NCBI GenBank assembly: GCA_018969685.1
Contig: JAGWXX010000002.1
Location: 1-64,000, forward strand
DNA length: 64,000 nucleotides
Direction of reading: 5' to 3'
DNA from: Acidobacteriota bacterium
Lineage (GTDB): Bacteria; Actinomycetota; Acidimicrobiia; Acidimicrobiales; Ilumatobacteraceae
A program made the translations under genes and the position numbers. The notes under the pieces are model-generated. The model made no database searches, was not told where the DNA came from, and was given only the letters and a program-made list of their open reading frames with translations. Shown here one piece after another: positions 1-18,110 of the stretch. Numbering within the stretch: the first letter of the stretch is position 1; each line of letters opens with the position of its first letter.

Positions 1-107
1 TCCAGCACCTCAAGCCGGTGCTGCGGCGCGGCACGCGGCTCGACCCGCCGATCGTCTACCCGCCGTACTCGGAGCGGAAGATGAAGCTGCTCCGCAAGGC
101 GCTCTAG
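1..107 (+). CDS. 3' end of an unidentified CDS (…QHLKPVLRRGTRLDPPIVYPPYSERKMKLLRKAL*)
   Basis: Open frame from the window start to TAG at 105-107; truncated at 5' end. Confidence 0.5.
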   Translation, partial: QHLKPVLRRGTRLDPPIVYPPYSERKMKLLRKAL

Positions 108-120
108 CGCCGCTCGGGGA

Positions 121-1182
121 CTACGTCGGCCGATTCACCCAGACGAGGTGTGCCTCGTTGATCGTCGTCTCACCCGACCAGCGGTAGGCCGCGAGCGGGT
201 TCAATTCTTCGGCGGCGCTCAGGTCCACGCAGATCATCCTCGGGTCGTGGATGAGGTCGTCTTCCTTCGACCAGTAGTGCCCGACGACTACCGGTATCTC
301 GTCGGTGTACGACGGCACCTTCCATACTCTGACGTCGTCCTTGGTGACCGGATCGTCAGGGAGCAACGAAAACGGCTGACGCTCGGGGGTCCGCGAACCC
401 GGCGGGATCAGCGCGGCGCGCCGGAAGGTGGACGTATCGGCGCGCCACCATGCGATGCGTGCCTCCGTACGCACGTGGTCGCTCTTGTCGAGGTACGCCC
501 ACCCATTCGGCAGCCTGACCTCCGGACCCTTGAGCAGGCACTCGAGCGCGTCGTACTCGGGAGCGCCATCGGTGCTCGCCAGCAGTACCGCTGTGGCATC
601 CAGGAACCACGATCCGCCGCGCTGCTGCGCCAGCGGTCGCAGCACATCCATGGACGGCTGGTGCCAGCAGGCGTGCACGACGCGGAGACCGTCGAGATCC
701 AGCCACAACGGCAGGGTGCGGAACCATTCGATCCACTCGCGGTGGACGCCGGATTCTGCACCCACGGCCCTGAGAAACGCGGCGTGCTGTGCGTAGTTCT
801 TGGGGCCCTTCTTCCCGAGTCTCGGGCGCAGGAAGTCGCCGTTCGTCGGGTGCGGCGTCGCCCAGGCGATCGCGTTGAACTCGTGGTTGCCCATCACGAT
901 GAGCGCCGTGCCGGCCTCGACCATGCGCCGCACCGTCGTCAGCACCTCGAGCTGGCCGTTCCCGCGGTCGATCAGGTCGCCGACGAAGACCGCCCGTCGC
1001 GTCGCGTGGCTCCACAGGCCATCGCGTTCCCTGTAGCCGAGGAATCGAAGCAACTCCACGAGCTTGTCATGCTGCCCGTGCACGTCGCCGATGACGTCGT
1101 ATCCCGGATCGTCGTGGTGCACCGATGGGACGCCCTTCACACCCGCACCATACCCGTCGGGTGCAGCAGGGAACCCGGCCAC
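121..1182 (-). CDS. Metallophosphoesterase (calcineurin-like, PrpA/Ap4A-hydrolase type)
   Basis: GDVHG…GDLIDRG…GNHE motifs; exact start uncertain. Confidence 0.85.
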   Translation of the reverse strand: MAGFPAAPDGYGAGVKGVPSVHHDDPGYDVIGDVHGQHDKLVELLRFLGYRERDGLWSHATRRAVFVGDLIDRGNGQLEVLTTVRRMVEAGTALIVMGNHEFNAIAWATPHPTNGDFLRPRLGKKGPKNYAQHAAFLRAVGAESGVHREWIEWFRTLPLWLDLDGLRVVHACWHQPSMDVLRPLAQQRGGSWFLDATAVLLASTDGAPEYDALECLLKGPEVRLPNGWAYLDKSDHVRTEARIAWWRADTSTFRRAALIPPGSRTPERQPFSLLPDDPVTKDDVRVWKVPSYTDEIPVVVGHYWSKEDDLIHDPRMICVDLSAAEELNPLAAYRWSGETTINEAHLVWVNRPT

Positions 1183-2049
1183 CTACGCCCCGAGCAGCCG
1201 CTCCACCTCCGCACGTGTGGGCAGCGACGGCACCGCCCCGCGGCGCGTCGTCGCCAGCGCCCCCGCAGCCGCGGCGGTGCGGGACGCCACGGCGACGTCG
1301 ACACCGCGCGACAACTCGGCGCACAGCGCCCCGATGAACGCGTCCCCGGCGCCGGTGGTGTCCACCGGCGACACCGCGAACGGCGCCACCGTCACCGTGC
1401 CGGCGCGCACGGCGACCGTCGCGCCACGGGCGCCCAGCGTGGTCACCACGGCCGTCACCCCGAGCGCGTGCAGCCGGTCGGCGCCGCCGAGCGCAGCCGC
1501 CTCCCCCTCGTTCGGAACGACGACGTCGCACAGCGACAGCAGGTCGTCGGGGAGGTCGCGCGCGGGCGCGGGATTGAGCACGGTCGTCGAGCCGCGGGCA
1601 CGGGCGGCGCGGAACGCCGCAACGACCGCGTCCAACGGCACCTCCAGCTGCGCCAGCACGACGCCCGCCGCGGGAAGCGACCCGGCGACGGATGCACCAG
1701 TCCGCGCATTCGCGCCGGGCACGACGACGATCGAATTCTCGGCGCGTGCATCCACGTTGATGAGCGCGCGCCCCGTCGGCACGCCGCGCAGGACGCGCAG
1801 CCCCGAGACGTCGATGCCCTCGTCGCGCATCACCTCCGCGAGGATCCCCCCTGCGGCGTCGTCGCCGATCGAGCCGACGAACGCCACCGCGGCACCGAGG
1901 CGCGCGGCGGCGACCGCCTGGTTCAACCCCTTGCCGCCGGCGTGCTCGGCATAGTCCGTCGCGAGCACCGTCGCGCCCGGCGCGGGCAGCGACGCCACGC
2001 TGGCGACGAGGTCGAGGTTCGCGCTCCCGACGACGCAGACGTCGGCCAT
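1183..2049 (-). CDS. Ribokinase / PfkB-family carbohydrate kinase
   Basis: MADVCVVGSANLDLVASV…GGKGLNQAVAAARLG…PVDTTGAGDAFIGAL. Confidence 0.88.
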   Translation of the reverse strand: MADVCVVGSANLDLVASVASLPAPGATVLATDYAEHAGGKGLNQAVAAARLGAAVAFVGSIGDDAAGGILAEVMRDEGIDVSGLRVLRGVPTGRALINVDARAENSIVVVPGANARTGASVAGSLPAAGVVLAQLEVPLDAVVAAFRAARARGSTTVLNPAPARDLPDDLLSLCDVVVPNEGEAAALGGADRLHALGVTAVVTTLGARGATVAVRAGTVTVAPFAVSPVDTTGAGDAFIGALCAELSRGVDVAVASRTAAAAGALATTRRGAVPSLPTRAEVERLLGA

Positions 2050-2060
2050 GCCCGGCTCCG

Positions 2061-3053
2061 TCAGCCGTTGACGAGTGCGGCGAGCTGGCGCCGCCACTCG
2101 ACCGAGCACTTGTCGGCCTGCACCGACACGAGGGAGGTCTGGTCGAGCGGGAGGACGCCGTCGAGCGTCTCCAGCATCCGCTTGTCCTCGGCGCCGATCG
2201 CACGGTCGAACACGATCACCTCGTCGGCGGGCACGGAGAAGTCGTCGTTGCGCCAGACCACGAACGAGAAGTAGCTGGTCACGTCGTCGATCGGCGTGGA
2301 CACCAGCAGCAGGACGTGCGCGAGACCCGTGTCGTACTCGATGGTCGACCTGCAGAGGAACGGCAGCGAGAACCCCGACGTCATGCGCCGGTGCACGACG
2401 CCGCCGCTCTGGCCGCTGGCGACCGTGCCGGCGTCCTCGTTGTTGGCGAACACCTCGTACGCGTACCCGTAGAAGCCGCCGTCGAGCGGCCCCAGCTCGA
2501 CCTTCGGCACCGTCGTCTCCTGGCCGCGGCCGAAGGTGCCGACGTGCACGAAGGGGAAGTGGGTGATGTCGAGGAAGTTGTCGGCCATCCGGGTCGCCGA
2601 CGTGCGCCACACCTCGAGGTCGGTGTTGATCCGGCGGAACGACGGGTCGGAGTCCTGGGCGACGTCGGGCAGGGGTGCCGCCGGCTCGCCGAGGCACACC
2701 CAGACGAGGCCGAACTTCTCCGTCGCCCGGTGCGCCGCGAGGTGCGCCTTCGGCGGCACCGGCACTCCCGGCGTCGCCGACGGGACGTGGGTGCAGGTGC
2801 CGTCGGCGGCGAATTGCCAGCCGTGGTACGGGCACTCGATGCAGCCGTCCTTCACCGCGCCGAGCGACAGCTTCGCCTCGCGGTGCGAGCATCGGTCGGG
2901 CAGCGCCGACACGCGGTGCTGGCCGTCGCGCCACAGCACCACGTGCTCACCGAGGAGCGTGCGGCGGATCGGCGCACCGCCGACCTCGTTGCTGCGGGCG
3001 ACCGCGTGCCACCGGTTGCGCAGTGCCGCATTGCCGCAGAGGATCGCGCCCAC
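2061..3053 (-). CDS. Rieske (2Fe-2S) aromatic ring-hydroxylating oxygenase
   Basis: CSHREAKLSLG…CPYHGWQF Rieske centre; DNFLDITHFPFVH mononuclear iron region; GTG start at 3053. Confidence 0.88.
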   Translation of the reverse strand: MGAILCGNAALRNRWHAVARSNEVGGAPIRRTLLGEHVVLWRDGQHRVSALPDRCSHREAKLSLGAVKDGCIECPYHGWQFAADGTCTHVPSATPGVPVPPKAHLAAHRATEKFGLVWVCLGEPAAPLPDVAQDSDPSFRRINTDLEVWRTSATRMADNFLDITHFPFVHVGTFGRGQETTVPKVELGPLDGGFYGYAYEVFANNEDAGTVASGQSGGVVHRRMTSGFSLPFLCRSTIEYDTGLAHVLLLVSTPIDDVTSYFSFVVWRNDDFSVPADEVIVFDRAIGAEDKRMLETLDGVLPLDQTSLVSVQADKCSVEWRRQLAALVNG

Positions 3054-3077
3054 TGCGCGGAGCGTAGCATCGGCTGC

Positions 3078-4424
3078 ATGGCCGCCTTCCTCGTGCGCGG
3101 CCGCCGCATCGTCACCATGGACGCCGCGCGCACGGTGGTCGACGACGGCGCGGTGCTCGTCGATGGCGCGCGCATCGCCGCCGTCGGTGCGTGGTCCGAT
3201 CTCCGGCGAAGCCACCCCGATGCCGGGGTCACCGAGGGGATCGCCGAGATCCTCGTGCCCGGCTTCGTCAACGCGCACCAGCACCTCACCGGCGACCGCC
3301 TCATGCACTCGCGCATCCCCGACCGCATCGACTCGCAGGAGGCGATCTTCGGATGGGCGGTCCCGCTGCACGCCGCCCACACCGAGGAGGACGACCACCT
3401 CTCCGCGACGCTCGCGCTCGCGGCGTCGCTCGCCAACGGCGTCACCACCACCGTCGAAGCCGGCACCGTGGCGCATCCGGCCGCCGTGCTGCGCGCCCAG
3501 CACGAGATCGGGGCGCGCGGCACGCTCGGTTCCTGGGGGTGGGACGTGCCGGACGGCCCGTGGGCCGGATCGGTCGGCGAGGTGCTCGACCGCCAGCGCG
3601 AGGTGCTCGCACTGGCGCCACCGGGAGGGCTCGTCGAAGGGTGGGTCACGCTCGTCGGACACGACCTCATGAGCGACGAGCTCGTCGCCGCCGCCTCCGA
3701 CCTCGCGCGCACCAGCGGCACGCACATGACCTTCCACCTCTCGCCCCACGACGGCGACGCGGCCGCGTACCTGTCGCGCACCGGCCGGCGCCCGGCGGTG
3801 CACCTGCACGAACTTGGCGTGCTCGGTCCGCACGTGCTCGTCGCGCACGGGGTGCACCTCGACGACGACGAGGTGGATGCGATCGTCGCAACGGGAGCCG
3901 CGATCGCCGCGTGTCCGTGGGCCTACCTCCGGCTCGCGCAGGGCGTCACGCGCGCCGGACGCTACGACGCGGTGCTCGCGCGCGGCGGCCGCGTGGCGCT
4001 CGGCTGCGACGCCGAGAACGCGGGCGACGCGATCGACATCCTGCGCACCGCCGCGCTGTTCGCCGGGCTGCTGCGGGACCGCTCCGGCGACCCGGCGTCG
4101 TTCACCGCGCTCGACGCGCTCGCGCTCGCCACCATCGACGGCGCTCGTGCGATCGGCATGGGCGAGCGGATCGGCTCCATCGAGGTCGGCAAGGAGGCCG
4201 ACCTCGTCGCCTTCGACGGCACCGGCTACGAGTGGCTGCCCCTCGGCGCCGACCCCTACCTGCAGCTGGTGTGGGGCACCGACGGCCGGTCCGTCCGCGA
4301 CGTCTGGGTGGCCGGCCGGCAGGTCGTCCGCGCAGGCCGCATCGTCACCGTGGACGTCGAGGCGGCCGCAGCGGCTGCCTCCGCCCGCGCCGAGCGTCTT
4401 GGTCAGACCATCAGACCATTGTGA
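3078..4424 (+). CDS. Amidohydrolase (TrzN/SsnA/cytosine-deaminase-like)
   Basis: PGFVNAHQHLTGD, TFHLSPHDGD, VAHGVHLDDDEV, GCDAEN metal ligands. Confidence 0.88.
   Translation: MAAFLVRGRRIVTMDAARTVVDDGAVLVDGARIAAVGAWSDLRRSHPDAGVTEGIAEILVPGFVNAHQHLTGDRLMHSRIPDRIDSQEAIFGWAVPLHAAHTEEDDHLSATLALAASLANGVTTTVEAGTVAHPAAVLRAQHEIGARGTLGSWGWDVPDGPWAGSVGEVLDRQREVLALAPPGGLVEGWVTLVGHDLMSDELVAAASDLARTSGTHMTFHLSPHDGDAAAYLSRTGRRPAVHLHELGVLGPHVLVAHGVHLDDDEVDAIVATGAAIAACPWAYLRLAQGVTRAGRYDAVLARGGRVALGCDAENAGDAIDILRTAALFAGLLRDRSGDPASFTALDALALATIDGARAIGMGERIGSIEVGKEADLVAFDGTGYEWLPLGADPYLQLVWGTDGRSVRDVWVAGRQVVRAGRIVTVDVEAAAAAASARAERLGQTIRPL
4400..4418. promoter_or_regulatory. Putative FadR-type GntR operator TGGTCAGACCATCAGACCA
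   Basis: Closely matches 23365-23383; sits directly upstream of the -10 of the VOC gene at 4437. Confidence 0.6.
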
Positions 4425-4436
4425 TAGGTTCGCGTC

Positions 4437-4928
4437 ATGGCTTATCCCAACACGCTGATCTTCGTCGACCTGCCATCCGACGACCCTGCCGCGTCCGCGC
4501 GGTTCTACGCCGAGGTCTTCGGCTGGGACGTCGAGGGGCGCCCCGAAGGGGTCTTCCACCGGTGCGTCCCGGGGCAGAACTTCAAGGTGGATGACGGGTC
4601 GCAGGGCCCCACCGGCAACCTGCACCTCGGCATCTACAACGTCGGCAACGCCCGCCCGCACCCGGATCCGAAGGGCGTCGAGCCGAGGACGCTCTCGCGC
4701 GACGGACGCACCGTGCGCACCTGGATCCTCGTCAGCGAGGACGACTCGCAGGAGCGGATCCTCTCGACGGCTGAGCGCCTCGGCGCCACCATCCTGTGGC
4801 GCAATCACTTCTGGAAGGAGTTCAACGGCTTCAACAGCGCGTTCCTCGACCCGTGGGGCAACACGCTGGTGCTGTGGAGCAAGGGCGGCGACGACCCGCA
4901 GATCCCCGCGGACCACACCCGTGAGTGA
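4437..4928 (+). CDS. VOC family (glyoxalase/bleomycin-resistance-like) protein
   Basis: MAYPNTLIFVDLPSDDPAASARFYAEVFGW… FLDPWGNTLVLW. Confidence 0.82.
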   Translation: MAYPNTLIFVDLPSDDPAASARFYAEVFGWDVEGRPEGVFHRCVPGQNFKVDDGSQGPTGNLHLGIYNVGNARPHPDPKGVEPRTLSRDGRTVRTWILVSEDDSQERILSTAERLGATILWRNHFWKEFNGFNSAFLDPWGNTLVLWSKGGDDPQIPADHTRE

Positions 4929-5391
4929 GCACGCCGACACCTACGCGCTCCACCCGCCGAAGGCGCGCTGGACGCACATCGCCCTGCCCTCGACCAACAT
5001 CGACGCATCGATCGCCTGGTACGAGAAGTTCACCCCGCTGAAGCTGCTCGACCGCCGCGAGGACGCGGACGGCTACGGCGCGTGGCTCGGACACGACGAC
5101 CAGTCGGACAAGCCGTTCATCCTCGTCCTGGTCTCGTTCTTCCGCGACCAGGACAAGGGCCGGCAGCCGATCATGGCGCCCTTCGCCCACATCGGCATCG
5201 AGCTCACCAGCCGCGAGGAGGTCGAGCGCACCGCCGAGCTGGGCAAGGCGGACGGCTGCCTCGCGTGGCCGCCCACCGACATGCCGCCGCCGATCGGCTA
5301 CATCTGCGCGCTGACCGACCCTGACGGGAACATGATCGAGTTCTCGTACGACCAGGGCGTCTACGCAAAGGCGAAGGAAGTCTGGGGCTGA
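4921..5391 (+). CDS. VOC family protein
   Basis: RWTHIALPSTNIDASIAWYEKFTPLK…ALTDPDGNMIEFSYDQG; GTG start overlaps upstream stop by 8 nt. Confidence 0.85.
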   Translation: MSEHADTYALHPPKARWTHIALPSTNIDASIAWYEKFTPLKLLDRREDADGYGAWLGHDDQSDKPFILVLVSFFRDQDKGRQPIMAPFAHIGIELTSREEVERTAELGKADGCLAWPPTDMPPPIGYICALTDPDGNMIEFSYDQGVYAKAKEVWG

Positions 5392-5774
5392 GCGCGTCCG
5401 GCGACCTCTGTCGCCGGTACCTCGAGTCGTTCGCGTCGGGCGATCCCGACGCGGTCGCCGCGTTCGTCGCCCACGACTTCGTCAACGACCACACCGCCGC
5501 GCTCGGCAGCAGCTGCGAGGGCCGCGACGAGTACCGGCGCCGGCTCCCGGGCTTCATCTCGTCGATGCCGGGTCTGCGCTACGAGGTGCGCGACGTCGTC
5601 GCCGACGGCGACCAGGTCTGCGCCTCCTACGTGCTGCACGCCCGGGTCAACGACCGCGACGTCGCCGTGCGCGGGATGATGCACTTCACGGTGCGCGACG
5701 GCGCGATCGCGCGCCGCACCGACTACTGGGACAGCGCGGTGTTCCTGCGGCAGGCCGGGCTCGACGGGTCCTAG
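5388..5774 (+). CDS. SnoaL-like / NTF2-fold protein, non-canonical start (CTG?)
   Basis: CRRYLESFASGDPDAVAAFVAHDFVNDHT…GRDEYRRRLPGFISSMPGLRYEV; no ATG/GTG/TTG upstream of the domain. Confidence 0.65.
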   Translation: MSASGDLCRRYLESFASGDPDAVAAFVAHDFVNDHTAALGSSCEGRDEYRRRLPGFISSMPGLRYEVRDVVADGDQVCASYVLHARVNDRDVAVRGMMHFTVRDGAIARRTDYWDSAVFLRQAGLDGS

Positions 5775-6811
5775 CCGCGCGACGCGCGCAGCCCGCCGAG
5801 CACGGAGCCGAATCCGGCGATCGTGTCGGCGAGGCCGCGGTGCATGCCCGCGCCGACCGCGAAGCTGAGGTTCATGCTGATGCTCGTGAACCCGAGGTCG
5901 AGGATCCCCTCGGCCATGTCGCGGCACTCGGACGGCGTGCCCGCAATGGCGAACTTCTGCACCAGCGAGTCGGGGATGAGCGAGAAGATCTCGGGGTCGT
6001 CGTGGCGGTCGTGGTCGAAGTACCAGCCCGTCGACCGCGCCAGGGCGGCCTCCACGCGCGCATACCACGTCCCGTCGTAGCCGAGCTCGGCCGGGCGGAT
6101 CAGCGCGACGTAGTGCGCGACGTAGCGCTTGACGCTGCGCCGGGCGAGCTCGCCGTCCTCCGAGGTGCACAGGGTGACGCGGGGTGCCACCTCCACCGAC
6201 GACGCGGGCCTGCCCGCGCGGGCCGCTCCCTCGGCGATCCACGACCGGTAGTCGGCGGCGAGCGACGGCGAGAGGTACCTGCCGCCAACCAGAGCGATGT
6301 CGGCGACCTCGCCGGCGAGGCGCATGACCTGGGGGCTGCGCGTCCCGATCGAGATCGGCACGCGGGCCGGGCCGTGCTGCAGCCGCGCACCGTGCAGCGA
6401 CACGGTCTCGCCCGCGAGGTCGACCGTGCCCCCTTCGAGCAGCGCGCGCACCGCCGCGACGCACTCGCGGAGGTGGGCGACCGGCCGGGGGGATCCGCCG
6501 CCGATCGCCTCGAGCCCCGCTCCGGCCCCGATGCCGAGGAAGAAGCGGCCACCGGACGCGTCGTGCAGCGTCGCCGCGATGCCCGCGAGCACGGCCGGGT
6601 GCCGCGTGTAGGGGTTCGTGACCATCGGGCCGATCCCGATCCGCGAGGTCTCGCGGGCGACGATGCCGAGGAGCACGAAGCAGTCCTGCCAGAGCACGAC
6701 GTCCGAGATGCCGAGCCGGTCGAACCCGGCGTCCTCCACCATCCGCGCCAGTTCGACGACCTCGTGCACCGGCATGCCGGGCGTGATCTCGGCCTCGACG
6801 GTCAACGGCAT
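5771..6811 (-). CDS. LLM-class flavin-dependent oxidoreductase
   Basis: ETSRIGIGPMVTNPYTRHPAVLAGIAATLHDASGGRFFLGIGAG. Confidence 0.88.
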   Translation of the reverse strand: MPLTVEAEITPGMPVHEVVELARMVEDAGFDRLGISDVVLWQDCFVLLGIVARETSRIGIGPMVTNPYTRHPAVLAGIAATLHDASGGRFFLGIGAGAGLEAIGGGSPRPVAHLRECVAAVRALLEGGTVDLAGETVSLHGARLQHGPARVPISIGTRSPQVMRLAGEVADIALVGGRYLSPSLAADYRSWIAEGAARAGRPASSVEVAPRVTLCTSEDGELARRSVKRYVAHYVALIRPAELGYDGTWYARVEAALARSTGWYFDHDRHDDPEIFSLIPDSLVQKFAIAGTPSECRDMAEGILDLGFTSISMNLSFAVGAGMHRGLADTIAGFGSVLGGLRASRG

Positions 6812-8205
6812 CAGAGCACCGGGTACTTGGCCTTGTCGGGCAGGCCGGACCGTGTGGCGATCGCCTCGCCCGCCTCCTGGCACCTCGCCCAGAATCGCTC
6901 CTCGTCGATCGTCGTCATCCGCCCGTCCTCGACGACCTTCCGGCCGTCGACGAAGACGGTGTGGACGCCGCGGCCGTCCGCGGACCAGACGAGCTGGTTC
7001 ATCACGTTCAGCAGCGGCCGCCACTCCGGGCGGTCGGTGTCGTGCAGCACCACGTCGGCCTTCTTGCCCGGCTCGAGCGACCCGATCTCGTCCTCGGCGC
7101 ACATCGCCTTGGCCCCGCCGAGCGTCGCCATCTCGTAGGCCTTCTCGGCCGGGAACATCTGGGGGTCGGTGCGAGAGTCCTTGAAGAGGCCCGCAACGAG
7201 GTACGTCGCGCGCATGAGGTCGCTGTAGTTCGACGCGTTGTTGCCGTCGGTGCCGATGCCCAGGTTGATGCCCGCCATCGCCATCTCCGGCATCTTGCCC
7301 ACCTGCGTCACGCCGTAGCTGACCTTCAACGCGGTGGTCGGGCAGTGCGCCACGGACACGCCGGCCTCGGCCATCACTCCCAGCTCGACGTTGTCCACCT
7401 GCACGCAGTGCGTGATGGCGACGTCGGGTCCCAGCACGCCGAGCTCGGCGAGGTGCACCATCGGCCGCTGGCCGAACTCCGCGAGGAACCCCTCCGGGTC
7501 GAGCTTCGCCGGCGACATGTGGAAGCTCATCCCCGTGCCGTACTGGTCGGCGAATGCGCGCGCCGCCTTCCAGAGCGGGTCGGAGCACGTCGTGTGCCCG
7601 ACGAGGATCGACCACGACTGGATCCGTCCGTCGGCGACCGAGCGGTGCGACGTGATCGACTGCTCCAGGTTGCGGATCGCCTCGTCGGTGTCCTGCTTGT
7701 AGACGTCCGGCTCGGGCGGCAGGTCCCAGATCCACCTGCCGACGCGGCCGCGGATGCCGACGTCCACGAGCCCCTCCACCACCTCGTCGAGGAAGCGGAT
7801 CGTGCCCGCCTCGAGGAACGAGGTCGTGCCGCTCTTGAGCATCTCGATCGACGCGAGCTGCGCGGACAGCCGCTCATCCTCGGCCCGGAACGTCGCGTAC
7901 AGCGGGCACAGCCACGCGAACACGTTCTCCTCGAACGGCGTGTCGTCCGGCACGTACCCGCGCGTCAACGGCTCGCCCGTGACGTGGATGTGCGAGTTGA
8001 CCATCCCCGGGGTGACGACGAAGCGGTCGCCCCCGACGGTCTCGCGCGCCGTGTACCGGGCCTCGAGGTCGGACGCCTTGCCGACGTCCACGATCGACCC
8101 GCCGCGGATCGCGACCGCGCCGTTGCGGATGATGTCGCGGTCGCGGTTCATCGTGACCACGTACCAGCCCTTGATCAGGGTGTCGATTGCCTCGGGCATG
8201 TCCAT
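6811..8205 (-). CDS. Amidohydrolase (SsnA/TrzN/atrazine-chlorohydrolase-like)
   Basis: TPGMVNSHIHVTGE, SFHMSPAKL, ITHCVQVDN, AHCPTTALKV, GTDGNNASN. Confidence 0.9.
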   Translation of the reverse strand: MDMPEAIDTLIKGWYVVTMNRDRDIIRNGAVAIRGGSIVDVGKASDLEARYTARETVGGDRFVVTPGMVNSHIHVTGEPLTRGYVPDDTPFEENVFAWLCPLYATFRAEDERLSAQLASIEMLKSGTTSFLEAGTIRFLDEVVEGLVDVGIRGRVGRWIWDLPPEPDVYKQDTDEAIRNLEQSITSHRSVADGRIQSWSILVGHTTCSDPLWKAARAFADQYGTGMSFHMSPAKLDPEGFLAEFGQRPMVHLAELGVLGPDVAITHCVQVDNVELGVMAEAGVSVAHCPTTALKVSYGVTQVGKMPEMAMAGINLGIGTDGNNASNYSDLMRATYLVAGLFKDSRTDPQMFPAEKAYEMATLGGAKAMCAEDEIGSLEPGKKADVVLHDTDRPEWRPLLNVMNQLVWSADGRGVHTVFVDGRKVVEDGRMTTIDEERFWARCQEAGEAIATRSGLPDKAKYPVL

Positions 8206-8225
8206 CCTCCTCGTTTCCGTGCCGC

Positions 8226-9305
8226 TCAGCGCGGCTTCTCCGCCACGTACATCTGGTTGAAGCCGATCGGCTCGACCAGCCGGATGCCGCGGAACCCCGC
8301 GTCCCGGATCCACTCCGAGACCTCCTCGTTGGTGAAGGTCCCGCCGCGACGCGTCGCCGCCACCATCGTCAGCCCCATCAGCACGCCGAACGGGTTGAAC
8401 TTCCGCGTGTTGTCACGGAAGTAGTCGGCCACCACCACGCGGCCCTCGGGCTTCAGCGCCTCGAACGCGCGCGCGATCAGGTGCCGCGCGCCGTCGTCGC
8501 CCTCGGTGCGGATCACGTGGCCGAGCACCACCATGTCGTACGCGCCCGGCTCGATCTCCACCTCGTGGAAGTCGCCGGGCAGCCACGTCACCCGGTCGGC
8601 GACGCCGAGCCGCCCCAGCGTGCGCTCCGCCGCGCCGATCACGCCCGGCAGGTCGTTCACGGTGCTCGTCGCCGCCGGATCCTTCTGCAGCACCGCGGCG
8701 GTCCACGGTCCGCACCCGGCGCCGAGGTCGAGCAGTCGCGTGCCACGCCGGCGGCTGTAGCCGATCTTCAGGTCGGCACGCGTGGCGGCGCGGAGGATCG
8801 TGGGGAACGTCGCCTCCACGAGCGGCAGGTAGAAGCCCGGTGCATCGTCCTCGATCGGCGTCGCCGGCGTGCCGCGGCGGAAGGTGTCGGCGAGGTCGGT
8901 CCAGTTCTCGAGCGGCCCCGGTGCGACGGCGATGAGGTCGGCCATCGAGGCCGGTCCGTCGGTGGTGAGGTAGCGCGTCGCGAGGTCGCCCAACTTGTAC
9001 TCGTCGCGGTACTGCTCGATCATGCCGATCGCCACGAGCCCGTCCATGAGGAAGAGGCCCGTGCGCTCGGGCACGCCGAGCTCGCCGCAGATCGCTGCGA
9101 GCCGGCAGGGCTGGAGCCGCTGCAGCGCGTCGAACACCCCGAGCTGCACGGCCGACACCAGCAGCCAGTAATTGCCGTAGCCCTGGATCACGCCCCACAC
9201 CGGTGCGGAGGCCGGCGGTTTGTGGTCGCTCCACGGCGTCCCGACGTGGGCCGCCGTGTGCGTCTTCTTGAGCTCGGGATACGGCGCGTCGCGCTCGGTC
9301 GCCAC
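8226..9305 (-). CDS. SAM-dependent O-methyltransferase (acetylserotonin-type)
   Basis: N-terminal winged-helix dimerisation segment then LLDLGAGCGPWTAAVLQKDP…VVLGHVIRTEGDDGARHLI; GTG start. Confidence 0.85.
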   Translation of the reverse strand: MATERDAPYPELKKTHTAAHVGTPWSDHKPPASAPVWGVIQGYGNYWLLVSAVQLGVFDALQRLQPCRLAAICGELGVPERTGLFLMDGLVAIGMIEQYRDEYKLGDLATRYLTTDGPASMADLIAVAPGPLENWTDLADTFRRGTPATPIEDDAPGFYLPLVEATFPTILRAATRADLKIGYSRRRGTRLLDLGAGCGPWTAAVLQKDPAATSTVNDLPGVIGAAERTLGRLGVADRVTWLPGDFHEVEIEPGAYDMVVLGHVIRTEGDDGARHLIARAFEALKPEGRVVVADYFRDNTRKFNPFGVLMGLTMVAATRRGGTFTNEEVSEWIRDAGFRGIRLVEPIGFNQMYVAEKPR

Positions 9306-9310
9306 GTGGG

Positions 9311-10345
9311 TCAGGGCTTCAGCAGGATCTTGCCGACGACGTCGTTGTTCTGCATCTTGTCCTGCGCCGCGCCCGCCTCGGCGAGCGGGAACGACGAGTC
9401 GACGACGACCTGGTAGCCGCCGCGGCAGAACTCCTGCCACGCGGGGGCGAACTCCTCCGGACGGTACGGGTCGCTGCCGAGGAGCTGGATGCCCATGTGG
9501 AACATGAACCCGAGCGAGGGGATCGTCGCGGTGTCGCCCGTCGTGTTGCCGCAATTGACGAGCCGTCCCCGCGGCTTGAGGGAAAACATCGACTGCGCCC
9601 ACAGGGCGGGCCCGACGTGGTCGAACACCATGTCGACGCCCGCACCCCTCGTCTGCGCGCGCGCGAAGCCCGTCACGTCCTCGGTGCGGTTGTTGCACGC
9701 GGCTGCCGCGCCGAGCTCGACCGCGCGACGGCACTTCTCGTCCGTGCCCGCGGTCGCGAGCACGGTCGCCCCGCGCTTCGCCGCGAGCTGGATGGCCGCG
9801 ACGCTCACGCCGCTGCCCGCCGCGTGGATCATGACCGTCTCGCCCGGCTGGAGCCGGCCGACCTCGAAGATCGCGTGCCACGCGGTGAGGTAGCAGGTCG
9901 GGAAGGTGACCGCATCGTCGAACGACATCCCGTCGGGGATCCGGTGCACGTGGGTCGCCGGCGCGACGCAGTACTCCGCATAGCCGCCGGGCACCGTGCC
10001 GCCGATGATGCCGAGCTCTCCGTAGAGGTCGCCCATGCCGGCGTAGCGCGAACCCTCGGCGACGCCCGCCAACGACGGATCGACGACGACCCGGTCCCCT
10101 ACCGACACGCCGGACGCCTTCGACCCCACCTCCACGACCTCGCCGGCGACGTCCATCCCCGCGACGTGCGGGAACGAGAACCCCGGCATCGTGAACCAGC
10201 CGTTGCGCTGCACGATGTCGAGGTGGTTCAGCGCGGTGGCCGCCACCTTGACCACGACGTCGTGCGTGCCCGCCGAAGGATCCGGCAGGTCGCCGTACTG
10301 CAGCACCTCCGGTCCGCCCTGGCGCTCGTAGAACACCGCCTTCAT
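9311..10345 (-). CDS. Zinc-type alcohol dehydrogenase / quinone oxidoreductase
   Basis: MKAVFYERQGGPEVLQYGDLPDP…HVAGMDVAGEVVEVG…VMIHAAGSGVSVAAIQLA. Confidence 0.9.
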   Translation of the reverse strand: MKAVFYERQGGPEVLQYGDLPDPSAGTHDVVVKVAATALNHLDIVQRNGWFTMPGFSFPHVAGMDVAGEVVEVGSKASGVSVGDRVVVDPSLAGVAEGSRYAGMGDLYGELGIIGGTVPGGYAEYCVAPATHVHRIPDGMSFDDAVTFPTCYLTAWHAIFEVGRLQPGETVMIHAAGSGVSVAAIQLAAKRGATVLATAGTDEKCRRAVELGAAAACNNRTEDVTGFARAQTRGAGVDMVFDHVGPALWAQSMFSLKPRGRLVNCGNTTGDTATIPSLGFMFHMGIQLLGSDPYRPEEFAPAWQEFCRGGYQVVVDSSFPLAEAGAAQDKMQNNDVVGKILLKP

Positions 10346-10373
10346 GTGGTCCTCCCCCTGGTTCCGTGGTCCG

Positions 10374-11303
10374 TCACTTCAATCCCCGCACGAACGGCCG
10401 CGCCAGTGCGACGGGCTGGCGGGTGTGCTTCGCGAACAGCAGCATCACCACGATCGTCGCGAGGAACGGCAGCGACGCCAGGAGCTGGCTGTTCAGGCTG
10501 TATCCGAGGATCGTCGGCAGGTTGAGCCGCAGCGCGTCGACGTAGCCGAAGAGCAGGCATCCGGCCACCGCCCCGCGCAGGGTCCATCCGCCGAAGATCA
10601 CGGCCGCGATCGCGATGATGCCCTTGCCGCCGATGTTGCCGCTCTCGAAGCGGCCGACCTGCCCGAACAGGTAGACCGCGCCGCCGATTCCCGAGAGCAG
10701 GCCCGCGTAGAGGATCGCCTGCCGCCGGCGCGCATTGACCCGGATGCCCGAGACGTCGGCCGCCTGCGGATCCTCGCCGACGGCGCGCACCTCGAGGCCC
10801 CAGTTCGTCCGCATCACGAGCCACCACGTCAGCGGCACCAGCGCGTAGATGACGTACATCGGCCAGCGCTGTCCGAACAGCGCCGGCCCGAGCACGGGGA
10901 TGTCGGCGAGCAGGGGGATCGACGTCACGCCGGCGAGGCGCGTGTCGAGGTCGAAGCGCGGCTGGAGGAACGCGGCGAGTCCGAGCAGGAGGATGTTCAG
11001 CGTCAACCCGATGCCGAATTGGTCGGCGGTGAGGTAGTGGCTCAGCCATGCCTGCAGCGCGGCGACGGACACGCCGACCATCCCGCCCACCGCGATGGCG
11101 AGCACGAAGTTGGGCGACGCCGTGAACGCGATGGCCGCGCCGAAGTGCCCGCCGAGCAGCATGGCCTCGACCGAGATGTTGATGGTGCCCGCCCGCTCGG
11201 CGACCCATTCGCCGACGGCGGCGAACGCGAGCACCGCCGCCAGGCGGAAGGTGCTCTCGTAGAGCGGTCCGTCGGTGAGCACGTTCCCGAGGAAACCCAG
11301 CAC
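10374..11303 (-). CDS. ABC transporter permease (BMP/nucleoside-type)
   Basis: AVLAFAAVGEWVAERAGTINISVEAMLLGGHFGA; GTG start. Confidence 0.88.
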   Translation of the reverse strand: MLGFLGNVLTDGPLYESTFRLAAVLAFAAVGEWVAERAGTINISVEAMLLGGHFGAAIAFTASPNFVLAIAVGGMVGVSVAALQAWLSHYLTADQFGIGLTLNILLLGLAAFLQPRFDLDTRLAGVTSIPLLADIPVLGPALFGQRWPMYVIYALVPLTWWLVMRTNWGLEVRAVGEDPQAADVSGIRVNARRRQAILYAGLLSGIGGAVYLFGQVGRFESGNIGGKGIIAIAAVIFGGWTLRGAVAGCLLFGYVDALRLNLPTILGYSLNSQLLASLPFLATIVVMLLFAKHTRQPVALARPFVRGLK

Positions 11304-11305
11304 GG

Positions 11306-12421
11306 TCAGGTCCTCTCCGTCAGGCTGGCCAGCGCGCGCCGCTTGCGGCGGAGGTCGCTGATGGCCGGCGGGATGAACAGGGCGACCACGAGCAGCGCGC
11401 GGACCACGTCGACGAGCACCGCCTCGATGCCGGCCACCGACAGGAACGTGGAGCCGCTGCGGAGCGCCGCGAACACGACCGCCACCGGCACCGCGAGGAG
11501 CGGGCTGTTGCGCGCGACCAGCGCGACGAGCAGTCCGTCCCACCCGACGCTCGACGAGAAGCCCGACGAGAACTTGTACTGCGACTCGCCGCCCGCGAGC
11601 ATCATCGCCCCCGCCATGCCGGCCGTCGCCCCCGACACGAGGATCGCCGACATGCCGTAGCGGACGTCGGAGACGCCGGCGCGCTGCGCGGTCCGGGGGT
11701 TGAGCCCGAGCACCTTCAGGCGGAAGCCCCACGTGGTGCGCGACAGGAGCCAGCCGAAGCCGAGCGCCATCGCGAGGGCGACGGGCACCGACAGGGGGAA
11801 GCGGTTGCCGAAGACCTCGATGATCCCGAGCCGCGAACCCGGTGCGACCTCTGCGCTCTGCAGGAGCCGGTTCGGCTCGCCCGGCACCACGTTCAGCAGC
11901 AGCTCGCCCCGGGTGAGCGTGAACGCCGCCATCTGCGACGAGAGGTAGACGAGCAGCAGCGTCGACAGCACGATCGGGATGCGGCGCCAGTACCAGAGGG
12001 CGCCTGCGAGGCCGGCCCAGAGCGCGCCTGCCGCGGCACCGAGCGCGATGCCGAGCACGAGCATGAGCGGATTGCCGGGCTGCACGAGGGTGAGGATGAA
12101 CGCCCCGCCCATCGCCCCGACGAGCAGCTGGCCCTCCTGGCCGATGTTGATGATGCCGGCCTTCGTCGCCACCACGCTGCCCACTGCGACGACCAGCAGC
12201 GGGGCGGTGCGCCGCAGCGTCTCGCCCCAGCGCCCTGGGTTCTGGAACGCGCCGTCGACCAGCGCGTTCACCGCGCGGGTCCACGACGACCCGTTGACCT
12301 CGATCAGCAGCAGCGACACCAGCAGCGCGCCCACGAGGCACGCGACGTAGAGCAGCGCGAGCTCGCGCTGGTCGCGGCCGAGCCGCAGGCGGCCGATCGC
12401 CGATCGCAGCACCACCCTCAC
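11306..12421 (-). CDS. ABC transporter permease (BMP/nucleoside-type)
   Basis: RRTAPLLVVAVGSVVATKAGIINIGQEGQLLVGAMGGAF; GTG start overlaps ATPase stop (GTGA). Confidence 0.88.
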   Translation of the reverse strand: MRVVLRSAIGRLRLGRDQRELALLYVACLVGALLVSLLLIEVNGSSWTRAVNALVDGAFQNPGRWGETLRRTAPLLVVAVGSVVATKAGIINIGQEGQLLVGAMGGAFILTLVQPGNPLMLVLGIALGAAAGALWAGLAGALWYWRRIPIVLSTLLLVYLSSQMAAFTLTRGELLLNVVPGEPNRLLQSAEVAPGSRLGIIEVFGNRFPLSVPVALAMALGFGWLLSRTTWGFRLKVLGLNPRTAQRAGVSDVRYGMSAILVSGATAGMAGAMMLAGGESQYKFSSGFSSSVGWDGLLVALVARNSPLLAVPVAVVFAALRSGSTFLSVAGIEAVLVDVVRALLVVALFIPPAISDLRRKRRALASLTERT

Positions 12422-13977
12422 GCCGCGCCGCCGATCAGCATGCCGAGGCGCGCCATGTCGACCGCCTCGTTGGGCATCTCGCCCACGATCGCGCCCTTGT
12501 AGATGACGACGATCCGGTCGGCGAGATGGAGGATCTCGTCCAGCTCGCTCGAGATCAGCAGCACGCCGACGCCGTCGGCGGCGGCCTCGCGCAGCCGGTC
12601 GCCCATGTATTCGATCGCGCTCACGTCGAGCCCGCGGGTGGGTTGCGCGGCCACGAGCACCTTCGGCCGCACCGACAGCTCCCGCGCCAGCACGACGCGC
12701 TGCTGGTTGCCGCCGGACAGCGTCCACATCGGCACGTCGGGGGACGGACAGGACACGCCGAACTGCGCGATCAGCCGCTCGGCGGACTCGCGCATGGCGG
12801 GGAGGTCGAGCGCACCGCGGCTCGACACCCTGTCGAGCGACGTCAGCGCGAGGTTCTCCGCGACCGTCATGTCGAGCACGCATCCGGAATCGTGCCGGTC
12901 CTCGGGCACCACGCCGATCCCGGCAGCCGCCATCGCACCGGCGCGCCCCGTGTCGACGGCCGCACCCCCGACCTCGACCGTCCCCGACGTCACCCTGCGG
13001 AGGCTCGACAGCACGTCGGCCAGCACGCGCTGGCCGTTGCCCTCCGCCCCCGCGACGCCGACGATCTCCCCCGCGCGCACCGTCAACGAGAGCCCGTCGA
13101 GCTCGGTGCCGCCGCGGCGGCTCCTCACGGTCACGCCGGACAGCCGAAGCGCCACGTCGCCGTCCGTGCCGGCGCCGCTGCGCATGTGGTGGGCGTCGCT
13201 CGTGCGCAGCCGCACGTCCCGACCCACCATCGCGCGCGCCAGCTCGTCGGGCGAGGTGCCGGACGTCGGCATCTCCGCCACGACGCGTCCGTCGCGCATG
13301 ATCACCACGTCGTCCGTGGCCTTCAAGACCTCCTCGAGCCGGTGGCTCACCAGCGCCACCGTGCCGCCCTCGTCGCGCACCACCTGGCGCAGCACGCCGA
13401 ACAGCTGCTCGCTCTCCTCCATCGTCAGCACCGACGTCGGCTCGTCGAAGATGAGCACGCGCGGGTTGCGGCGGAGGCACTTGACGATCTCGACGCGCTG
13501 GCGCTGGCCCGCGGTCAGGGTTCCGACGCGAGCGTCCGGATCGATGCCCAGCCCGTACCTCCCGCCGATCTCGGCGACGAGCGCGCGCGCCCTGTCCGCG
13601 TCGAGGCGGCTGCTGCGGTCGCCGAGCACGACGTTCTCCCACACCGTCAGCGCGTCGACGAGGCTGAAGTGCTGGTGGACCATGCCGATGCCGAGGTCGG
13701 CGGCCTGCTGCGGGCTCGTCACCTGCACCCGCTCGCCCGCGAGGTGGATCTCCCCCGAATCGGGCGTCACCAGCCCGATCAGGATCTTCATCAGCGTCGA
13801 TTTTCCGGCGCCGTTCTGGCCGAGGATCCCGTGGATCCGTCCGGCTTGGAGCACCATCGACACGTCGTCGCAGGCGCGCAGCGCGCCGTACGACTTCGTG
13901 ATCGACCTGATGGCGACGGCCGGTGAGGGGGCTTTCGCCCCCCCACCAACCACCACCGTGACGTCAGGTTGCGTCAC
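12418..13977 (-). CDS. ABC transporter, fused double ATP-binding protein (BMP/sugar-type)
   Basis: GQNGAGKSTLMKIL, LTAGQRQRVEIVKCL, second LSGGNQQRVVLARELS. Confidence 0.92.
   Translation of the reverse strand: MTQPDVTVVVGGGAKAPSPAVAIRSITKSYGALRACDDVSMVLQAGRIHGILGQNGAGKSTLMKILIGLVTPDSGEIHLAGERVQVTSPQQAADLGIGMVHQHFSLVDALTVWENVVLGDRSSRLDADRARALVAEIGGRYGLGIDPDARVGTLTAGQRQRVEIVKCLRRNPRVLIFDEPTSVLTMEESEQLFGVLRQVVRDEGGTVALVSHRLEEVLKATDDVVIMRDGRVVAEMPTSGTSPDELARAMVGRDVRLRTSDAHHMRSGAGTDGDVALRLSGVTVRSRRGGTELDGLSLTVRAGEIVGVAGAEGNGQRVLADVLSSLRRVTSGTVEVGGAAVDTGRAGAMAAAGIGVVPEDRHDSGCVLDMTVAENLALTSLDRVSSRGALDLPAMRESAERLIAQFGVSCPSPDVPMWTLSGGNQQRVVLARELSVRPKVLVAAQPTRGLDVSAIEYMGDRLREAAADGVGVLLISSELDEILHLADRIVVIYKGAIVGEMPNEAVDMARLGMLIGGAA
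13927..13942 (-). promoter_or_regulatory. GC hairpin with GAAA tetraloop at SBP/ATPase junction
   Basis: Minus strand GGGGGC-GAAA-GCCCCC, about 40 nt after SBP stop and inside the first codons of the ATPase. Confidence 0.5.
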
Positions 13978-13980
13978 TGA

Positions 13981-15108
13981 TCAGCCTGCGTAGGCCTTGC
14001 CCTTGATCTCGCCAAAGGCCGCGGCGAACTCGCCGGCCTGGATCTTGGCGTAGACCTCCTGCATCGCGGCGTCCTGCTCGGGCGTCGGGCTGCAGATGAA
14101 GGCGCCGGGCGAGCCGTTCGGGCCGACGTTGTCGCCGGGGCGGAACGTGAGCTTCTCGCCCTCCTTGAACGTGCCCTCGACGATCCGCTTCATGGCCTCG
14201 ACGATGTAGTCGCCGCCGTCGAACCGGACCTCGATCTGGTACGCCAGGTCGGTGCGCTCGCACCCGTCGGCCTTGCCCGCGGTCATCGTGATGATGCCAT
14301 CGGTGTTGGCCAGCTGGACGATCGCCTCGTGTGCGCCGTCGAGGTACGGGTTGACCGCGCCGAGACCCGCCGCCTTGGCCGCGTTGTACGCCTCGGTGGC
14401 GCCGGCCGTGTTGGCGAAGTCGTACGGGTATGCGCCCGTCGGGACGTAGCTGAACGTCGCCTCGGGCAGCGCGTCCTTCAGTCCGAGCTCGTAGGCCAGG
14501 TAGGCCTCCTTCTCGAACGGCAGGTCGCAGCAGCCGAGGAAGACGACCGACTTGTTCTCCGAGTCGGCGAGCAGGAGACCGGTCGCATAACCGGCGGTGT
14601 AGCTGATCTCCGAGGAGTCGTCGAGCGTCTGCGCGAGGCCCGGGATGTCCTTGCCGTATCCGGCGCCGCAGTTGCAGTACCAGAAGATGTCGGCGTACGT
14701 CTCGGTCAGCGTCTCGAGCGGACCGGCGATCTCGCTGGCCGCCACCACGATGACGTCGGCACCCTGCTGGGCGATCGCCTCGAGCTTCTCGGCGGACTGC
14801 TCCGCCTCGATCTTGTCGACGACGATCGGCTCGGGCTGCCCGTACTGCGCCGCGACGGCCTTCACGCCGTCCACGGTCGCCTGCACGTAGGCCCCGTCGT
14901 TCGCCGGACCGGCCGCGGCGACGGCAAACTGGATGACGCCGTCACCGTTCGCGTCGAGCGCGAGGAGGCCCGCCGGAACGGTCTCCTCGGTCGCCGCTTC
15001 GGTGGTCTCGGTGGCCTCGTCCGTGGCGCCATCGTCGCCACCGCACGCGGCCGCGACGAGGGCGAGCACGGCTGCCGCCGCGAACCCCCTGATCATGGAT
15101 TGCTTCAC
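13981..15108 (-). CDS. BMP-family ABC transporter substrate-binding lipoprotein
   Basis: Lipobox LVAAAC; BMP-family-like periplasmic fold, next to cognate ATPase and permeases. Confidence 0.87.
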   Translation of the reverse strand: MKQSMIRGFAAAAVLALVAAACGGDDGATDEATETTEAATEETVPAGLLALDANGDGVIQFAVAAAGPANDGAYVQATVDGVKAVAAQYGQPEPIVVDKIEAEQSAEKLEAIAQQGADVIVVAASEIAGPLETLTETYADIFWYCNCGAGYGKDIPGLAQTLDDSSEISYTAGYATGLLLADSENKSVVFLGCCDLPFEKEAYLAYELGLKDALPEATFSYVPTGAYPYDFANTAGATEAYNAAKAAGLGAVNPYLDGAHEAIVQLANTDGIITMTAGKADGCERTDLAYQIEVRFDGGDYIVEAMKRIVEGTFKEGEKLTFRPGDNVGPNGSPGAFICSPTPEQDAAMQEVYAKIQAGEFAAAFGEIKGKAYAG

Positions 15109-15213
15109 GTTTCCCCCTTCGTTGGAATCGCTGTGGTTGTCACGCCGTGCGTCCGGACGTTCCGGTCCCTGTGGACCCTCCCGACCGTTGCACGCCGTGG
15201 TTCCGTTGTCGCG

Positions 15214-15375
15214 TCACCCCCTGAGGACTGCCACGACATCGGCCTTGTAGCGGTAGGCGGTCGAGAGCGGCTCGCCTCCCGCGAGCGCCTCCTCCACCCG
15301 AGCCTCCGCGGCGGCGTACCGCGCGGAGTCCGCGAGATTCTTCCCGTCATGTCCGGATGCGCAGGTCATCGTCAT
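15214..15375 (-). CDS. Small 53-aa hypothetical protein coupled to Rieske oxygenase
   Basis: ATG overlaps Rieske TGA (ATGA, 15372-15375); MTMTCASGHDGKNLADSARYAAAEARVEEALAGGEPLSTAYRYKADVVAVLRG. Confidence 0.5.
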   Translation of the reverse strand: MTMTCASGHDGKNLADSARYAAAEARVEEALAGGEPLSTAYRYKADVVAVLRG

Positions 15376-16565
15376 CCGGCCTCTGACACCACCTGCACGC
15401 GACGACCCGGCCAGTGGCTGGCGTAGCGCTGCACGAGCCAGCGGTTGAACTGGACGTGGCTCTCCTCCTGCCAGGAGTACCGGCCGCGCGCCGCGAAGCG
15501 CGACTTCATGCCGCGCTGCACCTTGGTCGTCGCGTCCTGGTCCTGCTTCACGAACACCTGCACGCCCGCGTCGCTCATCTGGAAGAGGTGCTCGAACATC
15601 GGGTGCTCGAGCGCGGACGGGTGGAAGAGGTAGCCGATCTCGACGTCGATCGTGTCCGGCGTCTTCGGCCGGACGATGAAGAAGAACGCCTGGTCCGGCG
15701 CGGTGCCGAAGCAGAGGCTCGGCGGCATCAGCGCGAACGTCGAGCGCCAGCGCTCCTCCTCCGTGAGCTTCGGGAACACCGGCATCAGGGCCTTGGTCGT
15801 GGCGTTGAAGCCGCCGTCGATGTGCGTGTAGCCGTTGGTGCGGAACATCACGTTCGACGCGTCGTCCCACGGCACCGGGAACGCCGCCAGGTTGCTCGGG
15901 CAGAAGTCCTGGATGGTGTGGTGGAGGCGGTTGGCGTGGTAGCCGTCGTTGAAGTTCTCCATCATGACCTTCCAGTTCCACGGAAGGTCGGTGAGGGTGA
16001 AGGTGCCGGGGCACACCGTGTTCTCGAGGTCGTAGTTGGCGAGGAACGGCTCGTAGCGGGACATGGTCGGCGCGAACGGCGCCGCGTCGCGGTCGAAGTT
16101 GACCATGATGAACCCCTGCCACAGCTCGACCTTCAGGTTCGGCAACCCGTAGTCCTTCTTCTCGAAGCCCTCCGTGCGCTCCATCGCAGGCGCGCCGAGC
16201 AGGCGCCCGTCGAGTCCGTACGACCAGTGGTGGTACGGGCAGGTGAAGGTGCCGCAGTTGCCCTTGTCGTCGCAGATCTGCATGCCGCGGTGCTGGCAGA
16301 TCGAGGAGAACACGCGCACCTGCGAGTCCTTCCCGCGGGCCACGATCACCTGCTCGTCGTTGACCACGGTCGTGAAGTAGTCGCCGTTGTCGGGGATCGT
16401 GCTCGCGCGGCCGACGCAGAGCCACTCGTGGCTGAACAGCGTGCGGCGCTCGAAGTCGAGGAACTCCTGCGTCGTGTAGCACTCCGTCGGCAGGGTCTTC
16501 GCCCTCGCGACGTCCTGCGTCGACTCGGACATCGACGCGAGCAGGTCCGGCGTGAAGATGGTCAT
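15372..16565 (-). CDS. Rieske aromatic ring-hydroxylating dioxygenase, alpha subunit
   Basis: CQHRGMQIC…CPYHHWSYGLDG; WKVMMENFNDGYHANRLHH iron site. Confidence 0.92.
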   Translation of the reverse strand: MTIFTPDLLASMSESTQDVARAKTLPTECYTTQEFLDFERRTLFSHEWLCVGRASTIPDNGDYFTTVVNDEQVIVARGKDSQVRVFSSICQHRGMQICDDKGNCGTFTCPYHHWSYGLDGRLLGAPAMERTEGFEKKDYGLPNLKVELWQGFIMVNFDRDAAPFAPTMSRYEPFLANYDLENTVCPGTFTLTDLPWNWKVMMENFNDGYHANRLHHTIQDFCPSNLAAFPVPWDDASNVMFRTNGYTHIDGGFNATTKALMPVFPKLTEEERWRSTFALMPPSLCFGTAPDQAFFFIVRPKTPDTIDVEIGYLFHPSALEHPMFEHLFQMSDAGVQVFVKQDQDATTKVQRGMKSRFAARGRYSWQEESHVQFNRWLVQRYASHWPGRRVQVVSEAG

Positions 16566-18103
16566 GATGCTCCCTCCATGGCGCGTGGCCGATCGTGTTC
16601 CTTCAGCATGAACTTGCGGATCTTGCCGACGCTGGTCCGCGGCAGCTCGTCGACGAACGTGATGTCGCGCGGCAGCTTCGCCCGGCTCAGGCGCTGCGCG
16701 CACCAGTCGTGCAGCTCGCCGACCGTCGGCGGCGCCGCGGGGTCGCGGGCGACCACGAAGGCGACGGGAACCTCGTCGCGCACCGGATCGGGCCTGCCGA
16801 CGACCGCGGCCTCGAGCAGGCCCGGGTGACCCGACAGCACCTGCTCGACCTCGACGATCGACACGTTCTCCCCCGACACCTTGAGGACGTCGGCGCGGCG
16901 GCCGTCGAACCAGTGCCGTCCCGCGGGGTCGCGCACCGCGCGGTCGCCGGTGAGGAACCAGTCGCCACGGAAGCTGCGTGCGGTGGTGTCGGGATCGTCG
17001 AGGTAGCCGTCGAAGAGCGTGATCCCCGGCACCCCCCGCACGACGATCTCGCCGACCTCGCCGTCCGACGACCTGACGCCGCCCGGGCCCTGCAGGTCGA
17101 CCTCGCAGGCCGGCGAGACGTACCCCATGCAGTCCGCGACCGGCGCCGCCTTCGAGTCCGTCAGCACCGCCGGGATCGTCTCCGTCATGCCGTAGAGCTG
17201 GCGCGGGCGGCACCCCACCAGCGCGGCGAACTCCTCGTACTGGCCGTCGGCGAGGTTCATCGCGTACCAGCAGTGCTGCAGCGCGAGACCGGGGACGGGC
17301 GTCGCGCCCCTGGCGAGGATCATGCGGATCGGCGCGGCGAAGAGGCTGGCGTGGGTCGCGCCGTGGCGCAGCGCCTGCCCGAGGAACCGGCTCGCCGAGA
17401 ACGTGTGCATCAACGCGACGGACGCGCCCACCGCGATGGCGCTGGCGAAGCTGTAGTACTGCGCATTGGCGTGGAAGAGGGGCAGCACGACGATCTGCCG
17501 GTGCTCCTCGCGCAGCTCGGACGCGGCCGCCATCACCTGGCCGGCGAACGAGTAGTTGGCCTGCGTCACCACGACGCCCTTCGGGCGCCCGGTCGTCCCG
17601 GACGTGAACATCACCGCCGCACGGTCGCGCGGTGCGACCCCGGGCCACGCCGCATGCCGGTCGGCGCCGAACACCTCGAGTGTGCAGTCGTCCTCGTCGA
17701 CCTCGATGACGGGCATTGCGCCCGACGCGCCGCGGTAGTCGTCGCGACGGTGGACGGAGCAGATGCCGACCTTCGCGCCGGTGCGCGAGAGGTGCTCGAC
17801 GAGCTCCTGGGTGCGCGACATCGGGTCCGACGGCACGATCCACGCGCCGAGCCGGACGGCTGCGATCCACGCGGCGACGAACGCGGGGGAGTTCGTCAGC
17901 GCGAGGCTGACGCTGTCGCCCGCACGCACGCCGTTGCGCACCAGTGCCGCGGCGCACCTGCCGACGAGGTCGTCGAACTCGCCGTACGTCCACGAGGCCG
18001 TGGAGCCGTCGGAGCGCTCGAACACGAGGAAGGGCGCACCGGCGCGTCGTGCGACCGCGCGGTCCCACAACGATGCGAATGCGACGCCCCCCACGTCGAT
18101 CAC
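16562..18103 (-). CDS. AMP-dependent acyl-CoA synthetase/ligase
   Basis: AVMFTSGTTGRPKGVVVTQ…GDWFLTGDRAVRDPAGRHWFDGRRADVLKVSGENVS…PRTSVGKIRK; GTG start. Confidence 0.92.
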   Translation of the reverse strand: MIDVGGVAFASLWDRAVARRAGAPFLVFERSDGSTASWTYGEFDDLVGRCAAALVRNGVRAGDSVSLALTNSPAFVAAWIAAVRLGAWIVPSDPMSRTQELVEHLSRTGAKVGICSVHRRDDYRGASGAMPVIEVDEDDCTLEVFGADRHAAWPGVAPRDRAAVMFTSGTTGRPKGVVVTQANYSFAGQVMAAASELREEHRQIVVLPLFHANAQYYSFASAIAVGASVALMHTFSASRFLGQALRHGATHASLFAAPIRMILARGATPVPGLALQHCWYAMNLADGQYEEFAALVGCRPRQLYGMTETIPAVLTDSKAAPVADCMGYVSPACEVDLQGPGGVRSSDGEVGEIVVRGVPGITLFDGYLDDPDTTARSFRGDWFLTGDRAVRDPAGRHWFDGRRADVLKVSGENVSIVEVEQVLSGHPGLLEAAVVGRPDPVRDEVPVAFVVARDPAAPPTVGELHDWCAQRLSRAKLPRDITFVDELPRTSVGKIRKFMLKEHDRPRAMEGAS

Positions 18104-18110
18104 GTCGGAC

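Follow-up and report, generated by a model that had tools for sequence, protein, structure and literature searches.

A 24-bp junction between two predicted leaderless genes reads as a single bidirectional promoter in an Ilumatobacteraceae genome

We propose that the 24 bp separating a Rieske oxygenase gene from a divergent amidohydrolase gene form one bidirectional promoter, which would give leaderless mRNA in both directions, support low-level expression and admit one polymerase at a time; we put the probability of this reading at roughly 80%. The evidence that carries it is the layout of the junction, a leaderless promoter signal found across the genome, conservation of the divergent pair in relatives, and recurrence of the same interlocked arrangement at other loci.

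Two -10 boxes share one TA between the start codons

The junction (positions 3051-3080, CACTGCGCGGAGCGTAGCATCGGCTGCATG) leaves 24 bp between the GTG of the Rieske gene at 3053 (minus strand) and the ATG of the amidohydrolase gene at 3078 (plus strand). The minus strand reads TACGCT-CCGCGCA-GTG (box 3066-3061, spacer 3060-3054, GTG 3053-3051) and the plus strand reads TAGCAT-CGGCTGC-ATG (box 3065-3070, spacer 3071-3077, ATG 3078-3080). The TA common to both hexamers is self-complementary, i.e., it reads TA on either strand. The initial annotation had described this gap, both boxes seven bases from their start codons and a 2-bp overlap between the boxes, and every one of these coordinates is exact in the sequence; once the gap is 24 bp and both spacers are N7, geometry dictates the 2-bp overlap, which should not be counted as a further coincidence.

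Table 1 Features of the divergent junction and its two genes.
Feature	Position	Strand	Evidence or remark
Rieske non-haem iron oxygenase, 330 aa	2064..3053	-	Pfam PF00355 2.6e-22 (Rieske), PF19112 1.1e-21 (VanA_C)
GTG start codon, Rieske oxygenase	3051..3053	-	Orthologue alignments begin at residue 1; TSS predicted at 3053 or an adjacent base
-10 box TACGCT, N7 before GTG	3061..3066	-	Preceded by TGC (extended -10, TGCTACGCT)
Self-complementary TA with which both -10 boxes begin	3065..3066		Unchanged in all six shared-TA species (three genera)
-10 box TAGCAT, N7 before ATG	3065..3070	+	Sequence; box at N6-8 in 15/33 orthologous pairs
ATG start codon, amidohydrolase	3078..3080	+	Orthologue alignments begin at residue 1; TSS predicted at 3078 or an adjacent base
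Amidohydrolase, TRZ/ATZ / nucleoside-deaminase-like, 448 aa	3078..4424	+	Pfam PF01979 8.8e-40

On both sides the box centre lies 10-11 bp upstream of the start, within the range described for leaderless genes of Mycobacterium tuberculosis, where TANNNT is centred 7-12 bp upstream and has no -35 partner (PMC3898074). The Rieske side carries an extended -10 (TGC) and the amidohydrolase side does not. Direct inspection of the sequence found no Shine-Dalgarno-like GGAGG 5-10 bases before either start, and no -35/-10 promoter of the TTGACA/TATAAT type was found in 2900-3250. A comparison by eye of the six loci that share the TA (see below) gave no convincing -35 hexamer upstream of either box, no operator or activator site was seen within the 24-bp gap, and an Rfam search of positions 1-20000 returned no RNA.

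A leaderless TANNNT signal runs through the genome and the family

Leaderless genes preceded by TANNNT have been reported for Actinobacteria in general (PMC3160421). In the window (the whole 64,000-nucleotide stretch analysed), TANNNT stood before ATG or GTG at a spacing of six bases nine times and of seven bases seven times (16 in total), against ~0.8 for each other spacing (P ~2e-11). A larger sample of the same genome (739 kb, 38% of it) gave 92, 81 and 44 occurrences at N6, N7 and N8 against 6-11 at N0-N5, so that 217 TANNNT motifs lay 6-8 bases before ATG or GTG where ~26 were expected. The control motifs AT...T, TT...A and TA...A had no comparable spacing peak in these 739 kb, and a peak similar to that of TANNNT was present in three other genera of the family (G012, G008 and G033, 400 kb sampled from each). 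Because the peak falls at N6-8 and the controls have none, the organism is predicted to use leaderless TANNNT promoters genome-wide.

The interlocked boxes are conserved beyond the genus

Many relatives, at ~50-70% protein identity, carry the two genes in the same divergent layout, and we compared 33 deduplicated loci. A Rieske-side box at N6-8 was present in 24 of the 33, as opposed to 3 at the control spacings N12-14; the corresponding counts on the amidohydrolase side were 15 and 0. The Rieske start codon is ATG in most relatives, with GTG also in L071. An orthologue of the Rieske gene, and hence the pair, was lacking in all 22 other genomes sampled from the genus but occurred in other genera of the family; this distribution suggests that the two genes are accessory or horizontally gained, and as a result the comparison contains no close relative.

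Both boxes share their TA in six species of three genera, with gaps of 24, 26 and 25 bp: our genome (genus g1), L064 (g3), and L065, L066, L067 and L072 (g22), where L072 is the locus of genome G056 and L065-L067 were assigned to g22 by their near-identical junctions. L064 has TATGCT-N8 and TAGTGT-N8, and the four g22 loci have TATGCT or TAGGCT-N7 and TAACCT-N8. Four of the six species are closely related, so they amount to about three independent lineages. In the six-species alignment, the only invariant gap columns were A3061, G3062, C3063, T3065, A3066 and T3070 (AGC-N-TA-NNN-T). These include all four box-defining letters (hypergeometric P 0.0014); the spacer bases varied, and spacer length was 7 or 8. 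L068-L071, which have a different gap or amidohydrolase start, keep the Rieske box and lack the one on the amidohydrolase side; a box on both sides is thus no universal feature of the pair.

Two of the public records compared, L067 and L108, are titled Bifidobacterium breve and Ferrithrix thermotolerans. These species names look wrong, because the loci are of the Ilumatobacteraceae type and the L067 junction is nearly identical to those of L066 and L072.

The shared-TA core recurs between divergent coding sequences

The core recurs elsewhere in our genome. In the own-genome sample, CAY-N-ANNNTANNNT-N-RTG matched 13 times when the arms were allowed 3-11 bases, and 8 of these matches were flanked by coding sequence leading away in both directions; TNNNATNNNA, a control specified to the same degree, matched 7 times, never between such coding pairs. 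The interlock was also found in two of the three other genera sampled; one such pair lies at 139256/139281 of the stretch taken from G012. Across the four genera (1.94 Mb) we counted 49 divergent pairs no more than 150 bp apart with a box at both coding starts. The shared-TA offset occurred six times among them, every other offset at most twice, and no offset from -10 to -5 occurred at all. Without the index case, 5 pairs had the shared-TA offset against 0.5-0.6 expected from neighbouring offsets (P ~2e-4 to 4e-4). Sharing the TA saves two letters relative to separate boxes, and part of the frequency of the arrangement reflects this economy, yet the control TNNNATNNNA has the same letter economy and gives no coding pairs. 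Counting the raw pattern CAY-N7-ANNNTANNNT-N7-RTG in 61 family genomes gave ~108 matches against ~98 for the reversed control, i.e., no enrichment, since the majority of matches have nothing to do with gene starts; we replaced this count by the coding-coupled one.

Three further divergent pairs with a shared TA lie in our genome, at L150:9157-9183, L158:2892-2916 and L162:13235-13258, with gaps of 25, 23 and 22 bp. Of three further own-genome pairs searched for domains, one encodes a FAD monooxygenase and a short-chain dehydrogenase, another MoaE and a protein of no family, and the remaining one has no domain match. Divergent pairs of leaderless type with other geometries were seen in G012 (sampled run b, 96558-96580, box offset +1, which is the 18-bp bidirectional geometry) and G033 (sampled run, 46969-46986, box offset +3). 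The G012 pair is among the next closest after the shared-TA ones.

These comparisons bear on an alternative in which a true leaderless promoter exists in the Rieske direction only, transcription of the amidohydrolase gene begins elsewhere (inside the Rieske gene), and the amidohydrolase-side box is a by-product of the self-complementary TA plus one T. The wider conservation of the Rieske-side box (24/33 vs 15/33) and the absence of an extended -10 on the plus strand would fit this, and once TANNNT is in place a single extra letter suffices for a match on the opposite strand; but the T of the amidohydrolase side is invariant in three genera along with the start codon and spacing, control spacings on that side gave 0/33, divergent coding pairs with the core recur where a control of the same economy gives none, and the ATG at 3078 has no Shine-Dalgarno sequence 5-10 bases before it. 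We consider a one-sided promoter unlikely. Back-to-back leaderless promoters, as the initial annotation had it, are the best reading of the sequence, given the genome-wide spacing statistics, the conservation of exactly the box letters across three genera and the recurrence, and given that neither a -35 pair nor a suitably spaced Shine-Dalgarno sequence is present.

The junction resembles known bidirectional promoters in a leaderless form

Bidirectional promoters with shared or symmetric -10 elements were described by Warman et al. (2021), whose work PMC12825309 and PMC10268837 cite and extend. They are defined as divergent pairs of transcription start sites 7-25 bp apart (PMC10268837), with preferred distances of 18, 10 and 23 bp and slight variation that follows from the variable distance between -10 element and start (PMC12825309). 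As in that class, the -10 elements of our junction overlap symmetrically on opposite strands and the predicted starts fall within 25 bp. By our own arithmetic, shared-TA geometry with the optimal 7-bp distance from -10 element to start yields 23 bp, one of the three common distances. Taking the first base of each start codon as the transcription start, the predicted distance here is 25 bp, i.e., 2 bp above the 23-bp mode and at the upper limit of the definition in PMC10268837, because the spacer is one base longer on each side. The reciprocal -7T/-11A of the commonest, 18-bp subclass is not found here; the box offset of -4 is that of the 23-bp arrangement. Unlike the described class, both genes at 3051-3080 are predicted to be leaderless, and the core plus two 7-bp spacers make up the whole intergenic region.

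The junction likewise matches leaderless actinobacterial TANNNT genes (PMC3160421, PMC3898074) in having TANNNT ~10 bp before the start, no -35 and no normally placed Shine-Dalgarno sequence, but differs from them in that two promoters are interlocked in one core. PMC3898074 also reports closely juxtaposed divergent promoters, and it describes prpD/Rv1129c as divergent genes that both yield leaderless mRNAs. The literature searched contained no paper on bidirectional promoters and leaderless genes in combination. On every testable feature, as read from the sequence, the locus is a putative member of the bidirectional promoter class in leaderless form and not a new kind.

A model for expression from the junction

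From this evidence we infer the transcription starts, sigma factor, steric exclusion and consequence for expression as follows. RNA polymerase with the housekeeping sigma factor would be able to bind the ANNNTANNNT core (3061-3070) facing either gene. Facing the amidohydrolase gene, it would melt the DNA at the shared TA and initiate at or next to 3078, giving leaderless amidohydrolase mRNA; facing the Rieske gene, it would initiate at or next to 3053 and give leaderless Rieske mRNA. Recognition would depend on the -10 boxes, as the -35 region of each promoter falls within the first codons of the other gene and offers no -35 partner. Because the boxes overlap, two polymerases should be unable to bind simultaneously. 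Basal activity would be low, probably leaving both enzymes in low constitutive supply from one minimal element, and interference would arise only upon strong activation of one direction.

The mutual exclusion predicted by the initial annotation follows for polymerases from the geometry, and PMC12825309 states for bidirectional promoters that two of them cannot bind together. Exclusion at the level of expression does not follow: at five bidirectional promoters of Escherichia coli, basal transcription was too weak for the two directions to compete, and they interfered only once one side had been strongly activated (PMC12825309). Because basal competition was negligible there and the 24-bp gap shows no activator site, we expect expression in both directions to be weak, independent and constitutive. 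The Rieske side is probably the stronger promoter, because of the TGC before TACGCT; in M. tuberculosis, promoters with an extended -10 tend to be more active (PMC3898074).

A true regulatory switch would go further and put polymerase exclusion to use, such that inducing one gene shuts off its neighbour. PMC12825309 states both the steric constraint and that activating one side can repress the other, but those five promoters had negligible basal competition, no site for an operator or activator is seen in the gap, and opposite regulation makes little sense for two genes that look like members of one catabolic cluster, which makes such a switch quite improbable. That the boxes are chance matches to TA...T, with both genes using other starts or upstream promoters, is very improbable even for a motif with merely three fixed letters, given the genome-wide spacing peak, the footprint across genera and the recurrence.

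Read as one bidirectional promoter, the junction is a clean, conserved natural case in which such a promoter would take up all of the space between two leaderless genes, and a minimal test-bed for the coupling of two enzymes' expression by the choice of polymerase orientation. Start-codon spacing alone would predict promoters of this kind, as divergent gaps of 22-26 bp containing ANNNTANNNT, so the class could be searched for by sequence without RNA data. More tentatively, interlocked leaderless promoter pairs might be a recurrent, selected architecture in this family, with gaps quantised at 22-26 bp as one TA serves both -10 boxes, and with two enzymes tied to a single choice of polymerase orientation that sets their ratio or noise.

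A putative operator accompanies the gene pair

Matches of the amidohydrolase to NCBIfam models fell below the curated cut-offs. Inside the 3' end of its gene lies a palindrome, TGGTCAGACCA (window positions 4400-4418), followed by a second half-site, TCAGACCA. Just after it, at 4437, begins a glyoxalase-like gene with a TAGGTT-N6-ATG of its own. The exact palindrome TGGTCNGACCA occurs in many orthologous loci (L064, L069, L070, L071, L075, L078, L095, L097, L099 and others), commonly at about this position or in the gap between the Rieske and amidohydrolase genes; the latter is the case in several orthologues with long gaps (e.g., L070, L071 and L098). It looks like a GntR/FadR-type operator of the catabolic cluster. 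Two regulator genes of the GntR family with FCD domains lie on the same contig, at 22185-22565 (minus strand) and 47304-47666 (plus strand), and their products are candidate binders of the palindrome.
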